The notes beneath the pieces are model-generated. The model worked only from the letters and a program-made list of their open reading frames with translations. It was not told the DNA's origin and did not search any database. From Solibacillus sp. FSL H8-0538 (lineage in GTDB: Bacteria > Bacillota > Bacilli > Bacillales_A > Planococcaceae): a DNA stretch of 64,000 nt. The stretch lies in assembly GCF_038003525.1 (NCBI RefSeq), contig NZ_JBBOPI010000001.1:3440001-3504000 (forward strand), in the 5' to 3' direction. This document shows positions 1 to 39,896 of the stretch, piece after piece. Within the stretch, counting starts at the first letter, position 1. Every line of letters begins with the position of its first letter. The position numbers were made by a program, and so were the translations under genes.

Positions 1-286
1 CTTCTAGCAGTAACATACGGAAGTCCTTATCACGATGCTTATACCCTAATCCTTGAATATGTAAATGGTAGTGGCAAAGCTCATGTAAAATAATGCCCCG
101 CAATTCATCTATTCCAAAATAATCATACAGCTTTTTATTTAGTTCTATATTATGTGATCTTAACAAGTATCGGCCTCCCGTTGATTTTAAACGGTTATTG
201 AAATAGGCATTATGTAAAAACGGCCGATTAAAATACTGTAATGATAAATCTTCTACTAATTGTTGGGCTTGTTCATCCGTCAACAT
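1..286 (-). CDS. SprT-like zinc metalloprotease-fold protein, 3' end outside window
   Basis: This is the first 95 codons of a SprT-family protein; the C-terminus lies beyond the left edge. The zinc-binding HExxH motif is visible as [11 protein letters not shown] at about residues 74-84. The start ATG at 286 follows a strong GGGGGAGAG ribosome-binding site. In B. subtilis the orthologue ydcK neighbours tex (ydcI), as here, so the family call is supported by both motif and synteny. The family's cellular role in bacteria is poorly defined. The gene was not in the supplied translations because it is truncated. Confidence 0.85.
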
Positions 287-413: not shown

Positions 414-2585
414 TTAGTCCATTTGAGCTTCTGGTGGTAGCATTGTCAAAGAAATACGGCCTTTATTTGCTTCTACCTTTTCTACCCAAACGGTTACGAT
501 GTCACCAAGAGCAACTACTTCAAGCGGATGCTTGATTCTACGCTTTTGCAGCTTTGAAATATGCACTAAACCATCCTGCTTCACACCGATATCAACGAAA
601 GCACCGAAGTCCACAACATTGCGGACTGTCCCTTGTAGCTCCATACCTACTTGTAAATCTTCCATCTTTAATACATCCGTTTTTAGAAGCGGCTGCGGGA
701 ATGCATCACGGGGATCACGCGAAGGCTTCATTAATGTATCGACAGTATCCTTCACGGTTACTTCGCCCACGTTTAATGTAGCACTTAGCTCTTGTACATT
801 TAGCTTACAAATTGCTTCTTCTGCTTTTTTCGTGCCAACATCCTTTTTCGTAATACCCGCTACTTTTAAAATTTCCTCCGCTAGCTTATAGCTTTCCGGG
901 TGAATACCTGTTGCATCTAGTGGATTTTTTGCCTCCGCAATACGCAAGAAGCCAATTGCCTGTTCAAATGTTTTTGCACCAAGACGCGGAATTTTCTTTA
1001 GCTGCGCACGAGAAGTGAATTTTCCTGCTTCGCCGCGGACATTGACGATATTTTCGGCGACTGTTTTTGATAAACCTGAAACGTATTGTAATAGCGAAGC
1101 AGACGCTGTATTTACATCAACTCCAACTTGGTTAACAGCTGTTTCTACAATAAATGTTAAAGAGTCTGCTAACTGTTTTTGCGATACATCATGCTGATAC
1201 TGGCCAACACCAACTGCTTTTGGCTCAATTTTCACAAGCTCTGATAATGGATCTTGTAGACGACGCGCAATCGATATGGCACTACGCTGCTCCACCTGTA
1301 AATCTGGGAACTCGGCACGTGCCACATCCGATGCAGAATATACCGATGCACCGGCTTCATTAACAATAACGTAAGCAGCATCCGTTTCAACTTCTTTCAA
1401 TAGGTCTGCGATAAATTGTTCTGTCTCACGAGAGGCTGTTCCATTGCCAATCGCAATAATGCTAATCGGATACTTTTTAAGAATTTCTTTTACGACCGCT
1501 TTTGATTTTACGATATCAGGCTTTGGTGGATGTGGATAAATCGCTGTCACTTCTAGCATTTTTCCAGTTTCATCGACAACAGCTAGTTTACAGCCTGTAC
1601 GGTATGCTGGGTCTACCCCTAATACCATTTTCCCACGCATAGGTGGCTGCAGTAATAAATTACGTAAGTTCTCAGAGAAAATATGAATAGCCTGCGCTTC
1701 CCCTTTAGCTGTTAACTCTCCGCGTAACTCCCGTTCAATCGATGGCTGGATAAGACGCTTATAGCTATCCGCAATAGCAAGCTTCACTTCATCCACCGAT
1801 GTCCCGCTAAAATTGCGTGGAATCCACTGTTGTTCCATGATTTGAGTTGCTCGCTCAAGTGGTACCTGAATAGCCGCACGAAGAATATCCTCTTTTTCCC
1901 CACGATTAATCGCTAAAATACGGTGTGGTACAATACGGTGAATAGGTTCCTCATATTGATAATACATTTCAAACACTTGCTTTTCGTCTTCTTCTGCATT
2001 TTTTACAGACGTTTCAAGTTTCCCTTCGCGCCAGGATAGCTGACGTAACTTATCACGCACTCCCGCATCATCTGCAAAACGCTCGGCTATAATATCACGT
2101 GCTCCATTTAGTGCATCCTCTACGGTTGAAACACCATTTTCTTCATTAAGAAATGAAGCAGCGATAGTCGCGATGTCCCCCTTAGTAAATTGCATTATTT
2201 TATCTGCGAGCGGTTCCAGACCACGCTCTTTTGCAATCGTTGCTTTCGTACGGCGTTTTTGCTTATACGGACGATATAAATCTTCCACGCGCTGCAAGAT
2301 TGTTGCACCATTAATTGCTGTAATTAACTCTTCTGTTAGCTTGCCTTGCTCCTCGATTAAACGTGATACTTCTTCTTTTCGATTTTCTAGTTGCTGTATG
2401 TAATGATAGCGATCTTCCACCGCTTTAATTTGAACTTCATCTAATGAACCCGTCGCTTCTTTTCGGTAACGTGCAATGAACGGCACAGTATTGCCATCCT
2501 CTAAAAGTTTAATGACCGTTTCTGCCTGATGCGGCTTTACTTTTGCATCGTTTGCAATGATTTGTAGCATTTGTTTATGTTCCAT
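414..2585 (-). CDS. tex: Tex, S1-domain RNA-binding transcription accessory protein
   Basis: This 723-residue protein has the full Tex architecture: an N-terminal helical Tex domain, a YqgF/RNase H-like domain (LGVDPAYRTGCKLAVVD, about 325-340), helix-hairpin-helix motifs (about 500-570) and a C-terminal S1 domain (about 645-715, GTVRNVVDFGAFVDIGVKQD). Tex binds nucleic acid and associates with the transcription machinery; in several bacteria it affects toxin expression or stress tolerance. The start ATG follows AAGGGTAGTGG. It is monocistronic, with its own terminator. Length and domains are normal for the family. The B. subtilis counterpart is ydcI. Confidence 0.95.
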   Translation of the reverse strand: MEHKQMLQIIANDAKVKPHQAETVIKLLEDGNTVPFIARYRKEATGSLDEVQIKAVEDRYHYIQQLENRKEEVSRLIEEQGKLTEELITAINGATILQRVEDLYRPYKQKRRTKATIAKERGLEPLADKIMQFTKGDIATIAASFLNEENGVSTVEDALNGARDIIAERFADDAGVRDKLRQLSWREGKLETSVKNAEEDEKQVFEMYYQYEEPIHRIVPHRILAINRGEKEDILRAAIQVPLERATQIMEQQWIPRNFSGTSVDEVKLAIADSYKRLIQPSIERELRGELTAKGEAQAIHIFSENLRNLLLQPPMRGKMVLGVDPAYRTGCKLAVVDETGKMLEVTAIYPHPPKPDIVKSKAVVKEILKKYPISIIAIGNGTASRETEQFIADLLKEVETDAAYVIVNEAGASVYSASDVARAEFPDLQVEQRSAISIARRLQDPLSELVKIEPKAVGVGQYQHDVSQKQLADSLTFIVETAVNQVGVDVNTASASLLQYVSGLSKTVAENIVNVRGEAGKFTSRAQLKKIPRLGAKTFEQAIGFLRIAEAKNPLDATGIHPESYKLAEEILKVAGITKKDVGTKKAEEAICKLNVQELSATLNVGEVTVKDTVDTLMKPSRDPRDAFPQPLLKTDVLKMEDLQVGMELQGTVRNVVDFGAFVDIGVKQDGLVHISKLQKRRIKHPLEVVALGDIVTVWVEKVEANKGRISLTMLPPEAQMD

Positions 2586-2768: not shown

Positions 2769-2798
2769 AACGAGTCTACTTTTTATAAAGTAGACTCG
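2764..2798 (-). terminator. Intrinsic terminator downstream of the rsbT region
   Basis: A 12-bp stem (CGAGTCTACTTT / AAAGTAGACTCG) with a T-run on the minus strand. It would end transcripts coming from rsbT. Confidence 0.8.
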
Positions 2799-2799
2799 T

Positions 2800-3005
2800 A
2801 GTATAAGAACATAATGAACACCACCACTCGAGTCAAAATTGAATAATTCATCAAGCGCTTGGTAGGTAAGCGCCCTCTCCATTACCTCTAATACATCTTC
2901 TGCTCGTACGTCTAAATAAATTACTATGAAGATCGCCGTAACTCGGTCGTTAATGCTTCAACCGCCGATTTTAATATCGTAGTCCCCGTTCTATTATTCC
3001 ATTAG
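2800..3005 (-). pseudogene. Possible decayed coding relic downstream of rsbT, family not recognised
   Basis: On the minus strand two overlapping frames carry protein-like stretches: one has GTTILKSAVEALTTELRR, the other YLDVRAEDVLEVMERALTYQ. Neither has a start codon with a ribosome-binding site, and stops interrupt both. The pattern suggests a frameshifted remnant. In B. subtilis, rsbU, rsbV, rsbW and sigB would lie here, but I could not match the residues to any of them. This could be chance in non-coding DNA. Confidence 0.25.
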
Positions 3006-3075
3006 AAACTCAAACCGCCCATGTTTTATTATATAAAAAACGTTTAATTTCCCTAGTACTCTAAATTATTTTCTG

Positions 3076-3474
3076 CTAAATCCATTTCTCTACTCGAATG
3101 GTTGTCCCTTTGTTGACGAAAGATTGAACATCCATATCGTCCATCAATTGTCGCACTCCTGGTAAACCCGCACCTAAGCCGCCTGATGTCGAATAACCAA
3201 CCTCCATTACCTTGCGTACGTCTCCTATTCCAGGCCCTTTGTCTGAAGCTGTAATTCTAATTCCTTCTCTATCATTTTCGCTAATTCTTTCTATTGTAAT
3301 CTTACCTGCACGAGCATATAAGTAAATATTACGTGCCAGTTCACAAATCGTTGTCGTAATCTTTGCCTGATCAAGTGTACCAAATCCCACAGACTTAGCT
3401 TCGTTACGACCGAGTTGACGTGCCGCTACAATATCCCATTCCGTGCTTATCTCAATAATAGCCTTTTTACTCAT
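3076..3474 (-). CDS. rsbT: RsbT, switch serine/threonine kinase
   Basis: This 132-residue GHKL-type kinase is very close to B. subtilis RsbT across its length: TEWDIVAARQLGRNEAKSVG near the N-terminus, the N-box ELARNIYLYA, the ADP-binding DKGPGIGD and the STSGGLGAGLPGVRQLMDD lid. In known systems RsbT phosphorylates the stressosome proteins RsbS and RsbR, is released, and activates the phosphatase RsbU. Here none of rsbR, rsbS, rsbU, rsbV, rsbW or sigB is present. ATG at 3474 is preferred because GGGGG lies 6 nt upstream; an in-frame GTG precedes it. The protein shows no damage. Confidence 0.93.
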   Translation of the reverse strand: MSKKAIIEISTEWDIVAARQLGRNEAKSVGFGTLDQAKITTTICELARNIYLYARAGKITIERISENDREGIRITASDKGPGIGDVRKVMEVGYSTSGGLGAGLPGVRQLMDDMDVQSFVNKGTTIRVEKWI

Positions 3475-3822
3475 CACTGTCCCCCAATTCCAGTTGGAGA
3501 TTCATTGGTGCTTGAATAATCCCTTTTTGATTCATTTCGAAAATATACTTTCACAAGTTACAATCAATTAATAGCAACAATTACGATACTTCTATCTATT
3601 AATATACCGAAGCAACCAGTCTATAGTATCCAACTAAGTATAGTACGATTTTTAGTTATATCGTTAAATTTTTAAATATTTTAAATATTTAATTGATTAT
3701 AATACAAAGAACCAAAAATTACTCGTTAAACATTCTACCTTTGAATAATATATTTACTTGTTTATACTTTCGTTGTATCACATATCGTTTTAAGTTTTTC
3801 GATTATTTTAAGAAAAGAATAT
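3475..3822. other. AT-rich intergenic region between endoA and rsbT
   Basis: rsbR and rsbS would sit here in B. subtilis. I see no intact gene. A 22-codon minus-strand frame starting near 3536 ends at 3470, overlapping the rsbT start codon in ATGAGTAA fashion; its C-terminus reads LQLELGDSDE. It may be the tail of a lost rsbS or simply leader sequence. The rest is very AT-rich and probably carries the rsbT promoter. Confidence 0.4.
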
Positions 3823-3860
3823 GAAAAAACATCGAAACAAGTTGTTTCGATGTTTTTTGG
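3823..3860 (-). terminator. Intrinsic terminator of the alr-endoAI-endoA operon
   Basis: A 10-bp stem (ACATCGAAAC / GTTTCGATGT) with a 5-nt loop. It is flanked by A- and T-runs, so it can work in both directions. Confidence 0.85.
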
Positions 3861-3872
3861 TTTTTTTATGTA

Positions 3873-4223
3873 TTAAAATTTAACTAGCCCTAAACTGATT
3901 TCAAGTGCAACATCTACTTTTTCCATCAATTGTGCATCAAGCTGTGTAATGCGATCTGTTAACCGCGACTTATCAATTGTACGCAATTGCTCAAGCAAAA
4001 TTACCGAGTCCCGCTCAAAGCCATATTTTTTGGCATTGATTTCAACATGTGTTGGTAATTTTGCTTTTTGAATTTGCGCAGTAATTGCAGCAATGATGAC
4101 AGTAGGACTGAATCGATTTCCTATATCATTTTGGATTATTAATACGGGTCTAGTACCACCTTGTTCAGAACCTACAACAGGTGAAAGGTCTGCAAAAAAA
4201 ACGTCTCCACGCTTTACAATCAA
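3873..4223 (-). CDS. ndoA: EndoA (MazF family) mRNA interferase toxin
   Basis: This 116-residue protein is almost identical in pattern to B. subtilis EndoA/Ndo[21 protein letters not shown] with the catalytic Arg region, [15 protein letters not shown], and the C-terminal [13 protein letters not shown]. It is a MazF-type, ribosome-independent endoribonuclease; the B. subtilis enzyme cuts at UACAU. It lies 4 nt downstream of its antitoxin gene and shares an operon with alr, the conserved Bacillales arrangement. The terminator at 3823-3860 closes the operon. Confidence 0.95.
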
Positions 4224-4227
4224 ATTG

Positions 4228-4521
4228 TCATCCCCCGCTTACGAGACGCTCCACCATATGTTCCGCTTCATACTCTGCATGTAAACATTCACTACAAATA
4301 GACAGATTTATGTGCGACATTTCCACATAGCCTTTCATTAAAGCTTCCCGTATTTGATTTGGTTGCTTATGCTTCGTAAATTTACGAGTTGATAGATACG
4401 TAATATCTTCGTCGCTTACAAAACTACTCCCAAAAGTCCGTTGAAATTGAACAAACATTTCTTCTGGCAGTCCTACAAATACTTTTTTCATTACAACATC
4501 GTCTAATTTCTTTGCGTACAC
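4228..4521 (-). CDS. ndoAI: EndoAI, antitoxin of EndoA
   Basis: This is the antitoxin partner of EndoA. The C-terminal half that wraps the toxin is well kept ([12 protein letters not shown] and [16 protein letters not shown]). The N-terminal ribbon-helix-helix portion starts normally ([14 protein letters not shown]), but its second helix is replaced by a different sequence of similar length ([17 protein letters not shown]), so DNA binding may differ from B. subtilis. The start is set at GTG 4521 because TGGAGGTG lies 6 nt upstream; a longer frame opens at 4539, and an internal ATG at 4491 is possible. Confidence 0.88.
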
Positions 4522-4666
4522 AACAAGCACCTCCACCAAAACGTACCATTTTACATTCCTAGTTCATTTTAGCATTGAATAGAAACGATTAAAAGACAAG
4601 AAAATAAAAAAACTGACAATTCTTGTATTTATAGGTTCGTTTTATGGAGTTTTATATCGAAATTAC

Positions 4667-37356: not shown

Positions 37357-39774
37357 TTATTCTTGAGGTTTTAAAATTAATTCGTATGTTGTATCTATGT
37401 CACCATTAATTTTTGTTTTCGAATAGCGTCCGTAAACCCAGCGTGAAATTTGATTATCATACCATTTTGATTTCACATGACCACTTTGACCTGGACCTAC
37501 AATATGCTCGGCATACGATAAATCTTGAAGATCAGCTACAAAACGCCAAGACGCGCCGTGATTTACAATGCCACTGCCATTTTCAGAAGCAGCTTGCACC
37601 GTTACACTAGAGCCGCCTACAGCCATTTGATCAGGAGTTAAATATGAGGCTAGTAAATCTGAAGCGCCCGACAATGGATGATTAAACGTTAGCTTATTAT
37701 AGCTACCCCATTGCCATTTTGAAATGGACGTACCGAATTTCTGATTAATTATCGAGACAGAATCCTCAAATGCTTTATAAACAAATGCATCTAAGCCGCC
37801 TTCATTCGCAATCCAAACGCCTTCGTTGCCTGCATACGCATCACGTAACATTTGGTCCATAACTTGCGACTTACCAGGCATTAACTCATACACATCTTCT
37901 GGCATTGCATCTTTAAATAACGCTTCCTTCATGTTTTTCATTAAGAAGTGGAAAACAAGAGGTGCACCCTCATCCTTGTTATCATACAGTTCCCATTCTT
38001 CCATTAATGTAATAACATTCGCGTATTTATTATCTGTATCCATCTTCTTTATTGTCGCCAGTAATTCCGGCAAAAACTCTTCTGCATACAGATTTTTCTT
38101 ATCCATTTGCATCGCCTTCATATCCGCTGCTGTTAGTTTGAGCTGTGCGCCCGTTTTCTCGTCATAAATAGGCGTTTCAATCATCTCTACGATACGCTCG
38201 TAGCGATACGGCTGTGCCCAAATATTAGAAATATGGTACGGATATTCCTCACCAATGACTTCATTATTCGCTGTTGCGATATAGCCTTCTTCTGGGTTCA
38301 CAACGGTCGGCAGTTCATCGTACGGGATGTAACCTTCCCACCCGTATTCAGAAGAATCACCTGGTACTGGTAGCTCTGCATTCCCCTTTTTACGAATCGG
38401 GACATTGCCGTTTGCTTTATACGCAATCGTTCCGTCTTTTGACGCGAATACGAAGTTTTGTGCTGGCGCCATGAAATCTTCCAGTGCGAGCTCAAACTCT
38501 TCCCAATTCGACGATTTATTAAAACCAATAACCGCTTGTAGTTCTTTCGTTGGCTCTAACGCTGTCCATTGCATTGAAAATACTGCCGATGCTTTTGTAT
38601 CGTCTGTCATGACATTTGAAATAATTGGACCATGACGTGTCTCAACAACTTCAAAATCAATTGTTTGCCCATCTTTTACAATAATCGGCTCACTACGAAC
38701 TGTCGCATCTTCCCACTGCCCGTCATACTTAAACTGATACGGATTATTTGGATTTGGCGTTTCGATATATAAATCTTGCACGTCTGGGTTCACATTTGTT
38801 ACGCCCCATGCGATTTCTTCGTTATGGCCTAAAATAATGCCCGGAATCCCGGCAAAAATAACACCGCTAACATTTTGCTCCGGTGATTTTAAGTGCATTT
38901 GATACCAAACGGATGGCGAGCTCAAACCTAAATGCGGATCATCTGCAAGAAGTGGGTAACCTGATTCCGTAAGCTCCCCTGAAATGACCCAGTTATTACT
39001 ACCATTAAATTCTTTAGGTAGTAAATCTGTATTGAATACACCCGAAACCTCTACCTGATTTGCTAAGTTTGCTTCAATAATTGATTTTGCGTTTTCTGGA
39101 TAGTTAAACATTAACTCATCCACTTGCTCTTTTGTATAGTTTTGTAATGCCCAGTGGCGGAATGCTTGTAAATTCCAGTTGCCACCTAAGTCATAGGCCA
39201 TATATTTACCAATCGCCAATGAGTCCACTGGTGTCCAAGTCTCTGGCTCGTAACCTAGTAACTTAAATTCATATGATAGCTTGCTCGTGCCTTTTACTTC
39301 GTCAATAAAAGCATTTACACCTTCTGCATACCATTCTAATATTTGTTTTGACTCATCATCATAGCCGTCCCATGATTCTTCCGCTGCATGACGCAGACTA
39401 AATGTACGGAAAAACTTATCTGTTTCAACCGCAGCTGCACCGACAACTTCCGCTAATGTTCCGCTCGCTTGACGACGTGCTAAATCCATTTGGAATAAAC
39501 GATCCTGAGCCTGCACATAACCTTGTGCACGATATAAATCTTGTTCGGACTGTGCCTCGATATGTGGAACCCCCATACCATCGCGTGTAACATTAACATC
39601 TTCATCTAAAATTGTGACAACTGTTTCTCCTTCAATTAAAGGCTTAGAGTTTGCTACATATAAATGTAATCCGGCTACTATAACTCCACCAGCCACAATT
39701 ACTAACCCGATAATCCAAATAAGCAAGTTGACGATTTTCTTGCCTCTACTCTTCACTGTTTTTTGTGACATCAT
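37357..39774 (-). CDS. Penicillin acylase family (Ntn-hydrolase) protein, membrane-anchored
   Basis: A protein of about 805 residues. One N-terminal transmembrane helix (about 12-38) is followed by an S45 acylase domain. NGSNNWVISG (about 261) holds the conserved Ser that becomes the N-terminal nucleophile after self-cleavage; DPHLGLSSPSVWYQ, GIPGIILGHNEEIAWGVTN and NHGASWRFVADL are also typical. The natural substrate may be an N-acyl compound such as a quorum signal; this is not decidable here. ATG at 39774 follows GAGAGG. It has no visible operon partner. Confidence 0.9.
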   Translation of the reverse strand: MMSQKTVKSRGKKIVNLLIWIIGLVIVAGGVIVAGLHLYVANSKPLIEGETVVTILDEDVNVTRDGMGVPHIEAQSEQDLYRAQGYVQAQDRLFQMDLARRQASGTLAEVVGAAAVETDKFFRTFSLRHAAEESWDGYDDESKQILEWYAEGVNAFIDEVKGTSKLSYEFKLLGYEPETWTPVDSLAIGKYMAYDLGGNWNLQAFRHWALQNYTKEQVDELMFNYPENAKSIIEANLANQVEVSGVFNTDLLPKEFNGSNNWVISGELTESGYPLLADDPHLGLSSPSVWYQMHLKSPEQNVSGVIFAGIPGIILGHNEEIAWGVTNVNPDVQDLYIETPNPNNPYQFKYDGQWEDATVRSEPIIVKDGQTIDFEVVETRHGPIISNVMTDDTKASAVFSMQWTALEPTKELQAVIGFNKSSNWEEFELALEDFMAPAQNFVFASKDGTIAYKANGNVPIRKKGNAELPVPGDSSEYGWEGYIPYDELPTVVNPEEGYIATANNEVIGEEYPYHISNIWAQPYRYERIVEMIETPIYDEKTGAQLKLTAADMKAMQMDKKNLYAEEFLPELLATIKKMDTDNKYANVITLMEEWELYDNKDEGAPLVFHFLMKNMKEALFKDAMPEDVYELMPGKSQVMDQMLRDAYAGNEGVWIANEGGLDAFVYKAFEDSVSIINQKFGTSISKWQWGSYNKLTFNHPLSGASDLLASYLTPDQMAVGGSSVTVQAASENGSGIVNHGASWRFVADLQDLSYAEHIVGPGQSGHVKSKWYDNQISRWVYGRYSKTKINGDIDTTYELILKPQE

Positions 39775-39896
39775 ATCCACCTCTCTATCTATGTAGTTAC
39801 TGTTTTTCCAATAATGTACTTAATTCAACAAGTTCCACATGTACTGATTGAAGTCCTGCAACTGTATGAACTTTCAATTAAACAGTATGTACCCAT

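Follow-up and report, generated by a model that had tools for sequence, protein, structure and literature searches.

RsbT is taught as the messenger that the stressosome releases and whose target is RsbU. This raises the question of what keeps an rsbT gene intact at a locus from which the rest of the sigma-B module has disappeared, as is the case in the 64,000-nucleotide stretch of the Solibacillus sp. FSL H8-0538 chromosome analysed here (the window). The original prediction, made from the letters of the window, was that this RsbT had been under selection without local partners and may serve a distant stressosome or a new target. We followed this up with searches of the whole genome, a comparison with relatives and tests of selection.

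An intact rsbT stands alone between ndoA and tex

The features of the locus are listed in Table 1.

Table 1. Features of the rsbT locus, in window coordinates.
Feature	Position	Strand	Remarks
sprT, N-terminal part	about 8..283	-	runs off window edge
tex	414..2585	-	flank
Intrinsic terminator	2770..2799	-	now closes the rsbT unit
sigB pseudogene fragment	2823..3051	-	codons about 93-174; three frame pieces and an internal stop
rsbT	3076..3477	-	intact ORF; 133 aa from GTG 3477 (or 132 aa from ATG 3474); PF02518, PF13581
Shine-Dalgarno-like GGGGGA	3480..3486	-	ahead of rsbT; direct reading
Bidirectional intrinsic terminator	3824..3858	.	between ndoA and rsbT; similar hairpin in relatives
ndoA	3873..4223	-	MazF-type endoribonuclease; flank
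ndoAI antitoxin	4228..4539	-	upstream in-frame extension; flank

The rsbT product is a GHKL/HATPase switch kinase in which the N-box (ELARN), G1 (DKGPGI) and the lid (GGLGAGLPG) are all retained. The gene follows ndoA/ndoAI and is in turn followed by tex and the start of sprT, placing it in the syntenic position of rsbT, which follows ndoA and precedes the remaining sigB operon or tex. Judged by sequence and position, the ORF is an RsbT orthologue by descent that outlived its own module. The intact gene, its ATP-binding motifs and its two flanks are all as the original prediction had described them. Because the bidirectional terminator separates ndoA from rsbT, the gene is likely to be its own transcription unit, and it is probably monocistronic between two terminators. 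Elsewhere in the window, positions 37357-39780 (- strand) encode an 807-aa member of the penicillin amidase family (PF01804, E 8.6e-223).

The gap between rsbT and tex holds a sigB fossil

The 490 bp separating rsbT from tex contain frameshifted remains of sigB. When the sigB products of relatives were used in tblastn, the matches (E about 1e-10 to 6e-11) fell into three collinear stretches in different frames, at codons 93-117, 118-132 and 138-174, and blastn against relatives’ sigB gave 65-67% nucleotide identity over about 210-230 bp. An unrelated small gene in the gap was considered and rejected on the tblastn result. The terminator at 2770-2799 is the counterpart of a hairpin that lies directly after sigB in relatives, and together with the fossil it identifies the locus as an eroded sigma-B operon. 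A deletion that begins about 25 bp beyond rsbT and reaches into the middle of sigB removed rsbU, rsbV, rsbW and the 5′ part of sigB, and a second loss took the sigB 3′ end. In place of a sigma-B general stress module, with an intact sigB beside rsbV and rsbW, the locus has only this fossil. The claim that sigB is absent held for an intact SigB, of which none was found elsewhere in the genome (best match SigF, E 1.5e-33), but has to be amended for the stretch it described (2770-3870), inside which the frameshifted remains lie.

Module loss that spared rsbT has recurred in the family

The comparison set comprised 250 genomes of the same family from 19 genera, and a clear rsbT (E at most 7e-27) was found in 241 of them. 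Two arrangements predominate, ndoA-rsbR-S-T-U-V-W-sigB-rsbX-tex and ndoA-rsbT-U-V-W-sigB-tex, the second without R, S and X. RsbS and RsbR are missing genome-wide in 9 of the 19 genera, among them the genus of this genome and its nearest relatives. From this distribution, loss of rsbR, rsbS and rsbX is ancestral to the surrounding clade and not part of the event in this genome. The rsbT-rsbU-rsbV-rsbW-sigB order in genomes without rsbR, rsbS or rsbX anywhere was seen at loci L069-L071, L074-L076, L085-L088 and L103-L106 and in many further genomes, and RsbT must therefore be controlled there without a stressosome. In genus g11 (L104, L107-L126) the ATP lid of RsbT is variable and often shortened (for example GSSSVGIPAV and SSAQVAGIKG) despite the presence of rsbU, as if kinase activity were unneeded once RsbR and RsbS had gone.

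The RsbU N-domain is missing from 15 of the 250 genomes, and five of these carry a lone rsbT: the genome studied here, G031, and the trio G034, G050 and G063. G016 (L090, 5507-7664 in tex orientation) has an rsbT-rsbV-rsbW-sigB operon without rsbU and a divergent RsbT. Six genomes of genus g15 and two of g6 (L097-L102, L094, L096) have V-W-sigB without T and U; having lost both genes, these eight have no RsbU as input phosphatase of sigma-B. G023 has no module genes left, only rsbU and sigB remnants. The gene orders of relatives can be set out as a series, R-S-T-U-V-W-B-X, T-U-V-W-B, T-V-W-B, V-W-B and lone T.

The species tree places this genome as the sister of genus g14, which has T-U-V-W-B. 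G031 nests within g14 next to a T-U-V-W-sigB species and has breakpoints of its own, its remnant joining rsbU codons 5-34 to sigB codons 198-261, so it lost the module independently. Genus g17 contains G034, G050 and G063 as a single clade, and three of its four species have a lone rsbT; no sigB remnant is left at the loci of these three, and a terminator-like sequence after rsbT is common to two of them. Together, the tree positions and breakpoints indicate that module loss sparing rsbT occurred at least three times. With lone rsbT found in other genomes, belonging to other genera of the family, and an assembly of 2 contigs that is 99.96% complete, an assembly artefact, raised at the outset as a possible undoing of the prediction, is unlikely. 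Exact peptide patterns searched for close relatives gave only matches in distant phyla, and our literature search found no paper describing, for this family, a lone rsbT or an rsbT operon without R and S.

The RsbU-contact surface has partly changed

Sites were numbered against what we take to be the B. subtilis RsbT sequence, which reproduces R19, R23, N24, D78 and D92. In B. subtilis, a salt bridge between RsbT D92 and R91 in the RsbU linker drives activation, and charge-swap experiments support the contact (PMC12143880). The equivalent of D92 in this genome is V93; the contact residues R19 and R23 are kept, as are the N-box Asn (B. subtilis N49) and the lid glycines. Among 100 RsbTs from genomes with rsbU, the D92-equivalent site is acidic (D or E) in 98, and the other two have a gap and a G at a point where the lid alignment is uncertain. 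In six RsbTs from genomes without RsbU the site reads V (here), A, T, K, D and D, and is therefore non-acidic in four of the six, with the K belonging to G016. On a 30-taxon tree, each of the four non-acidic changes (4/4) maps to RsbU-less branches, which make up 8% of the tree length (p about 5e-5).

Five positions that are invariant among intact-module RsbTs have changed in this protein (V35L, R39K, S45C, D93V and R110Q). V35, R39 and R110 are invariant in the 100 RsbTs from rsbU genomes, and V35 and R39 are changed in G016 as well. With a contact residue changed and the ATP site kept, the constraint facing RsbU has been partly released, and that on the ATP site has not. Loss of the contact residue favours the possibility that this RsbT serves a new target.

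Selection on rsbT appears to have outlasted sigB

A codon branch model run on 22 rsbT genes gave a background omega of 0.045. The branch of this genome has an omega of 0.029, which does not differ from background, and omega = 1 is rejected (p 3e-6). For the lone-rsbT clade of g17, read on the assumption of one shared loss before the three species split, omega is 0.077 (about 0.05-0.12), a sign of strong purifying selection, and an omega of 0.9 is worse by 2dlnL 130. The rsbT of G031 has an omega of about 4, which differs from background (p 0.014) and not from 1 (t2 about 0.1). A neutral phase of 0.05-0.15 is compatible with this gene, which by these estimates is probably a relic; the idea that every lone rsbT is under selection was rejected on this case.

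Because the branch of this genome mixes time before and after module loss, we fitted a two-phase branch, holding other branch lengths at their M0 values; the fit is limited to 74 fossil codons and to a branch on which synonymous sites are saturated. A neutral phase of about 0.5 substitutions per codon (about 0.2-1.0) is required to account for the sigB fossil, and none for rsbT (upper limit about 0.14). A single neutral phase shared by both is rejected (2dlnL 8.7, 1 df, p about 0.003), so selection on rsbT seems to have continued here beyond the death of sigB. Purifying selection thus appears to have persisted after the death of the module, in agreement with what had been predicted.

The main rival explanation is that rsbT is a slowly dying relic, its module having been lost so recently that no disabling change has occurred yet. 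A young loss would fit a sigB fossil that is still legible; the neutral phase that this fossil requires, however, cannot be shared by rsbT, and the approximately 230 bp of sigB have accumulated several frameshifts as well as a stop, against none in the 402 bp of rsbT. The G031 gene, intact but relaxed, demonstrates that intact-but-useless stages exist, yet the g17 clade, with no sigB remnant and a dS of about 0.8-1.2, still has a dN/dS of about 0.1. The five changes at otherwise invariant sites could be early decay and would suit a relic. We consider this explanation unlikely on balance, though it deserves to be taken seriously.

No known partner of RsbT is encoded in the genome

The search for partners covered the whole genome and found four STAS domains, in SpoIIAA, two SulP transporters and a 134-aa STAS protein beside an MCP-like gene. 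The SpoIIE-type phosphatases are SpoIIE and one REC-PP2C, and the only RsbW-like HATPases above cut-off are SpoIIAB and one in the MCP operon. No RsbR or RsbS was found in the genome or anywhere in the surrounding clade, leaving neither the scaffold of a stressosome nor the STAS substrates that an RsbT working as in B. subtilis would have. An RsbU target with the N-terminal RsbT-binding domain is likewise missing, as neither sequence nor profile searches of the genome detected an RsbU N-domain; a hidden RsbU N-domain fused to another output was rejected on the negative profile search. RsbV and RsbW of the sigma-B operon were found neither at the locus nor genome-wide. The inventory rests on searches, and by these the reported absence of rsbR, rsbS, rsbU, rsbV and rsbW extends from the locus to the genome. 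The genome-wide search also found no second rsbT, and hence no complete module elsewhere that would include one, the other outcome that could have overturned the prediction.

A partner-switching operon lies at 195.6-199.3 kb of the organism’s own chromosome (L037 5622-9349) and encodes a REC-PP2C, an RsbW-like HATPase, an MCP-like membrane protein and the STAS protein, without a sigma factor. We think it very doubtful that RsbT has been re-wired into this operon. Apart from SpoIIAA and SpoIIE, the genome has no free STAS protein and no SpoIIE-type PP2C other than those of this operon, but the operon has a HATPase of its own, and its PP2C carries a REC domain and no RsbU N-domain. A comparable close STAS/PP2C pair occurs in G050, a lone-rsbT genome; such pairs are, however, also present in G042 and G017, which have intact rsb modules, and none was found in the lone-rsbT genomes G034, G063 and G031. 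Compensation for module loss by the MCP/STAS/PP2C operon was rejected, since the occurrence of similar pairs does not follow the state of rsbT. Cooperation of RsbT with a stressosome or an RsbU from another part of the genome, the distant stressosome of the original prediction, would suit the kept ATP motifs and R19/R23 contacts. It is refuted within the limits of the nearly complete assembly, in which the genome-wide search gave no candidates for RsbR/RsbS, an RsbU N-domain, or further STAS or SpoIIE-type PP2C proteins.

A proposed role for RsbT independent of RsbU and the stressosome

We lean towards the explanation that the locus is an end stage of sigma-B operon erosion, where RsbT is kept for an ATP-dependent, RsbU-independent role with another partner. 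As comparison with relatives shows, the clade ancestor lost rsbR, rsbS and rsbX, leaving rsbT-rsbU-rsbV-rsbW-sigB. The deletion seen at the locus, from just after rsbT to mid-sigB, came next, with the remaining sigB decaying to the frameshifted fossil. The substitution tests support a third step, in which rsbT would have escaped decay, with its ATP-binding fold, its start site and its terminator all preserved. Finally, RsbT may have been kept for an ATP-dependent role that needs neither RsbU nor a stressosome, most likely by binding or phosphorylating another protein through a contact independent of the surface that pairs with the RsbU linker. Against a selected function, the lone rsbT of G031 looks relaxed, so selection is not universal among lone rsbT genes.

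In B. subtilis, RsbT kinase activity is reported to be unneeded for RsbU activation (Kang 1998), and on that account retention of the ATP motifs without RsbR and RsbS is not explained by RsbU activation alone. The kept motifs of lone RsbTs point instead to a use of ATP binding other than RsbU activation, and Ser/Thr kinase activity of this RsbT on STAS proteins is predicted from its motifs. The only free STAS protein common to all five lone-rsbT genomes is SpoIIAA and the only strong SpoIIE-type PP2C is SpoIIE, so these two proteins of the sporulation sigma-F switch would be the first candidate partners. Hanks and BY kinases would be the second; in yeast two-hybrid assays, interactions of B. 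subtilis RsbT with PrkD, PtpZ and inactive PtkA were reported (PMC4166321).

A broader proposal, to which we give slightly less than an even chance, is that RsbT has a second function, independent of RsbU and the stressosome, that was already present in RsbR/RsbS-less ancestors. Deletion of the surrounding sigma-B cascade would have exposed it on at least two occasions, in this genome and in the g17 clade of three species. The function would be placed in those ancestors because ATP-binding motifs were kept though the known substrates had gone.

Comparison with known systems

This RsbT is orthologous to that of the Bacillus/Listeria RsbRST-RsbU-V-W-SigB systems, with which it has the GHKL fold, N-box, G1, lid, R19, R23 and the position between ndoA and tex in common, and it is up to about 74% identical to family members that retain rsbU and sigB. 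It differs in that the genome encodes neither an RsbR/RsbS substrate nor an RsbU target, in the change of D92 to Val and in being probably monocistronic. Retention of RsbT where SigB is missing recalls Vibrio and other Gram-negative stressosomes; those have RsbR and RsbS, with RsbU adjoining in V. brasiliensis (PMC4976288, PMC9237108), whereas RsbT here is without all three. The anti-sigma kinases SpoIIAB and RsbW belong to the same GHKL switch-kinase superfamily, and SpoIIAB is the closest solved structure by sequence. The similarity is weak, however (E about 5e-5 in PDB; 43.6 against a cut-off of 135 for the NCBIfam SpoIIAB model), and the genome encodes a separate SpoIIAB of its own.

The parallel loss of the D92 contact is independent support for the recent structural model of how RsbU is activated. 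If RsbT is indeed selected in a genome without a stressosome, RsbU or SigB, the messenger would have another recipient, and the lone-rsbT lineage would provide a clean background in which to find it.
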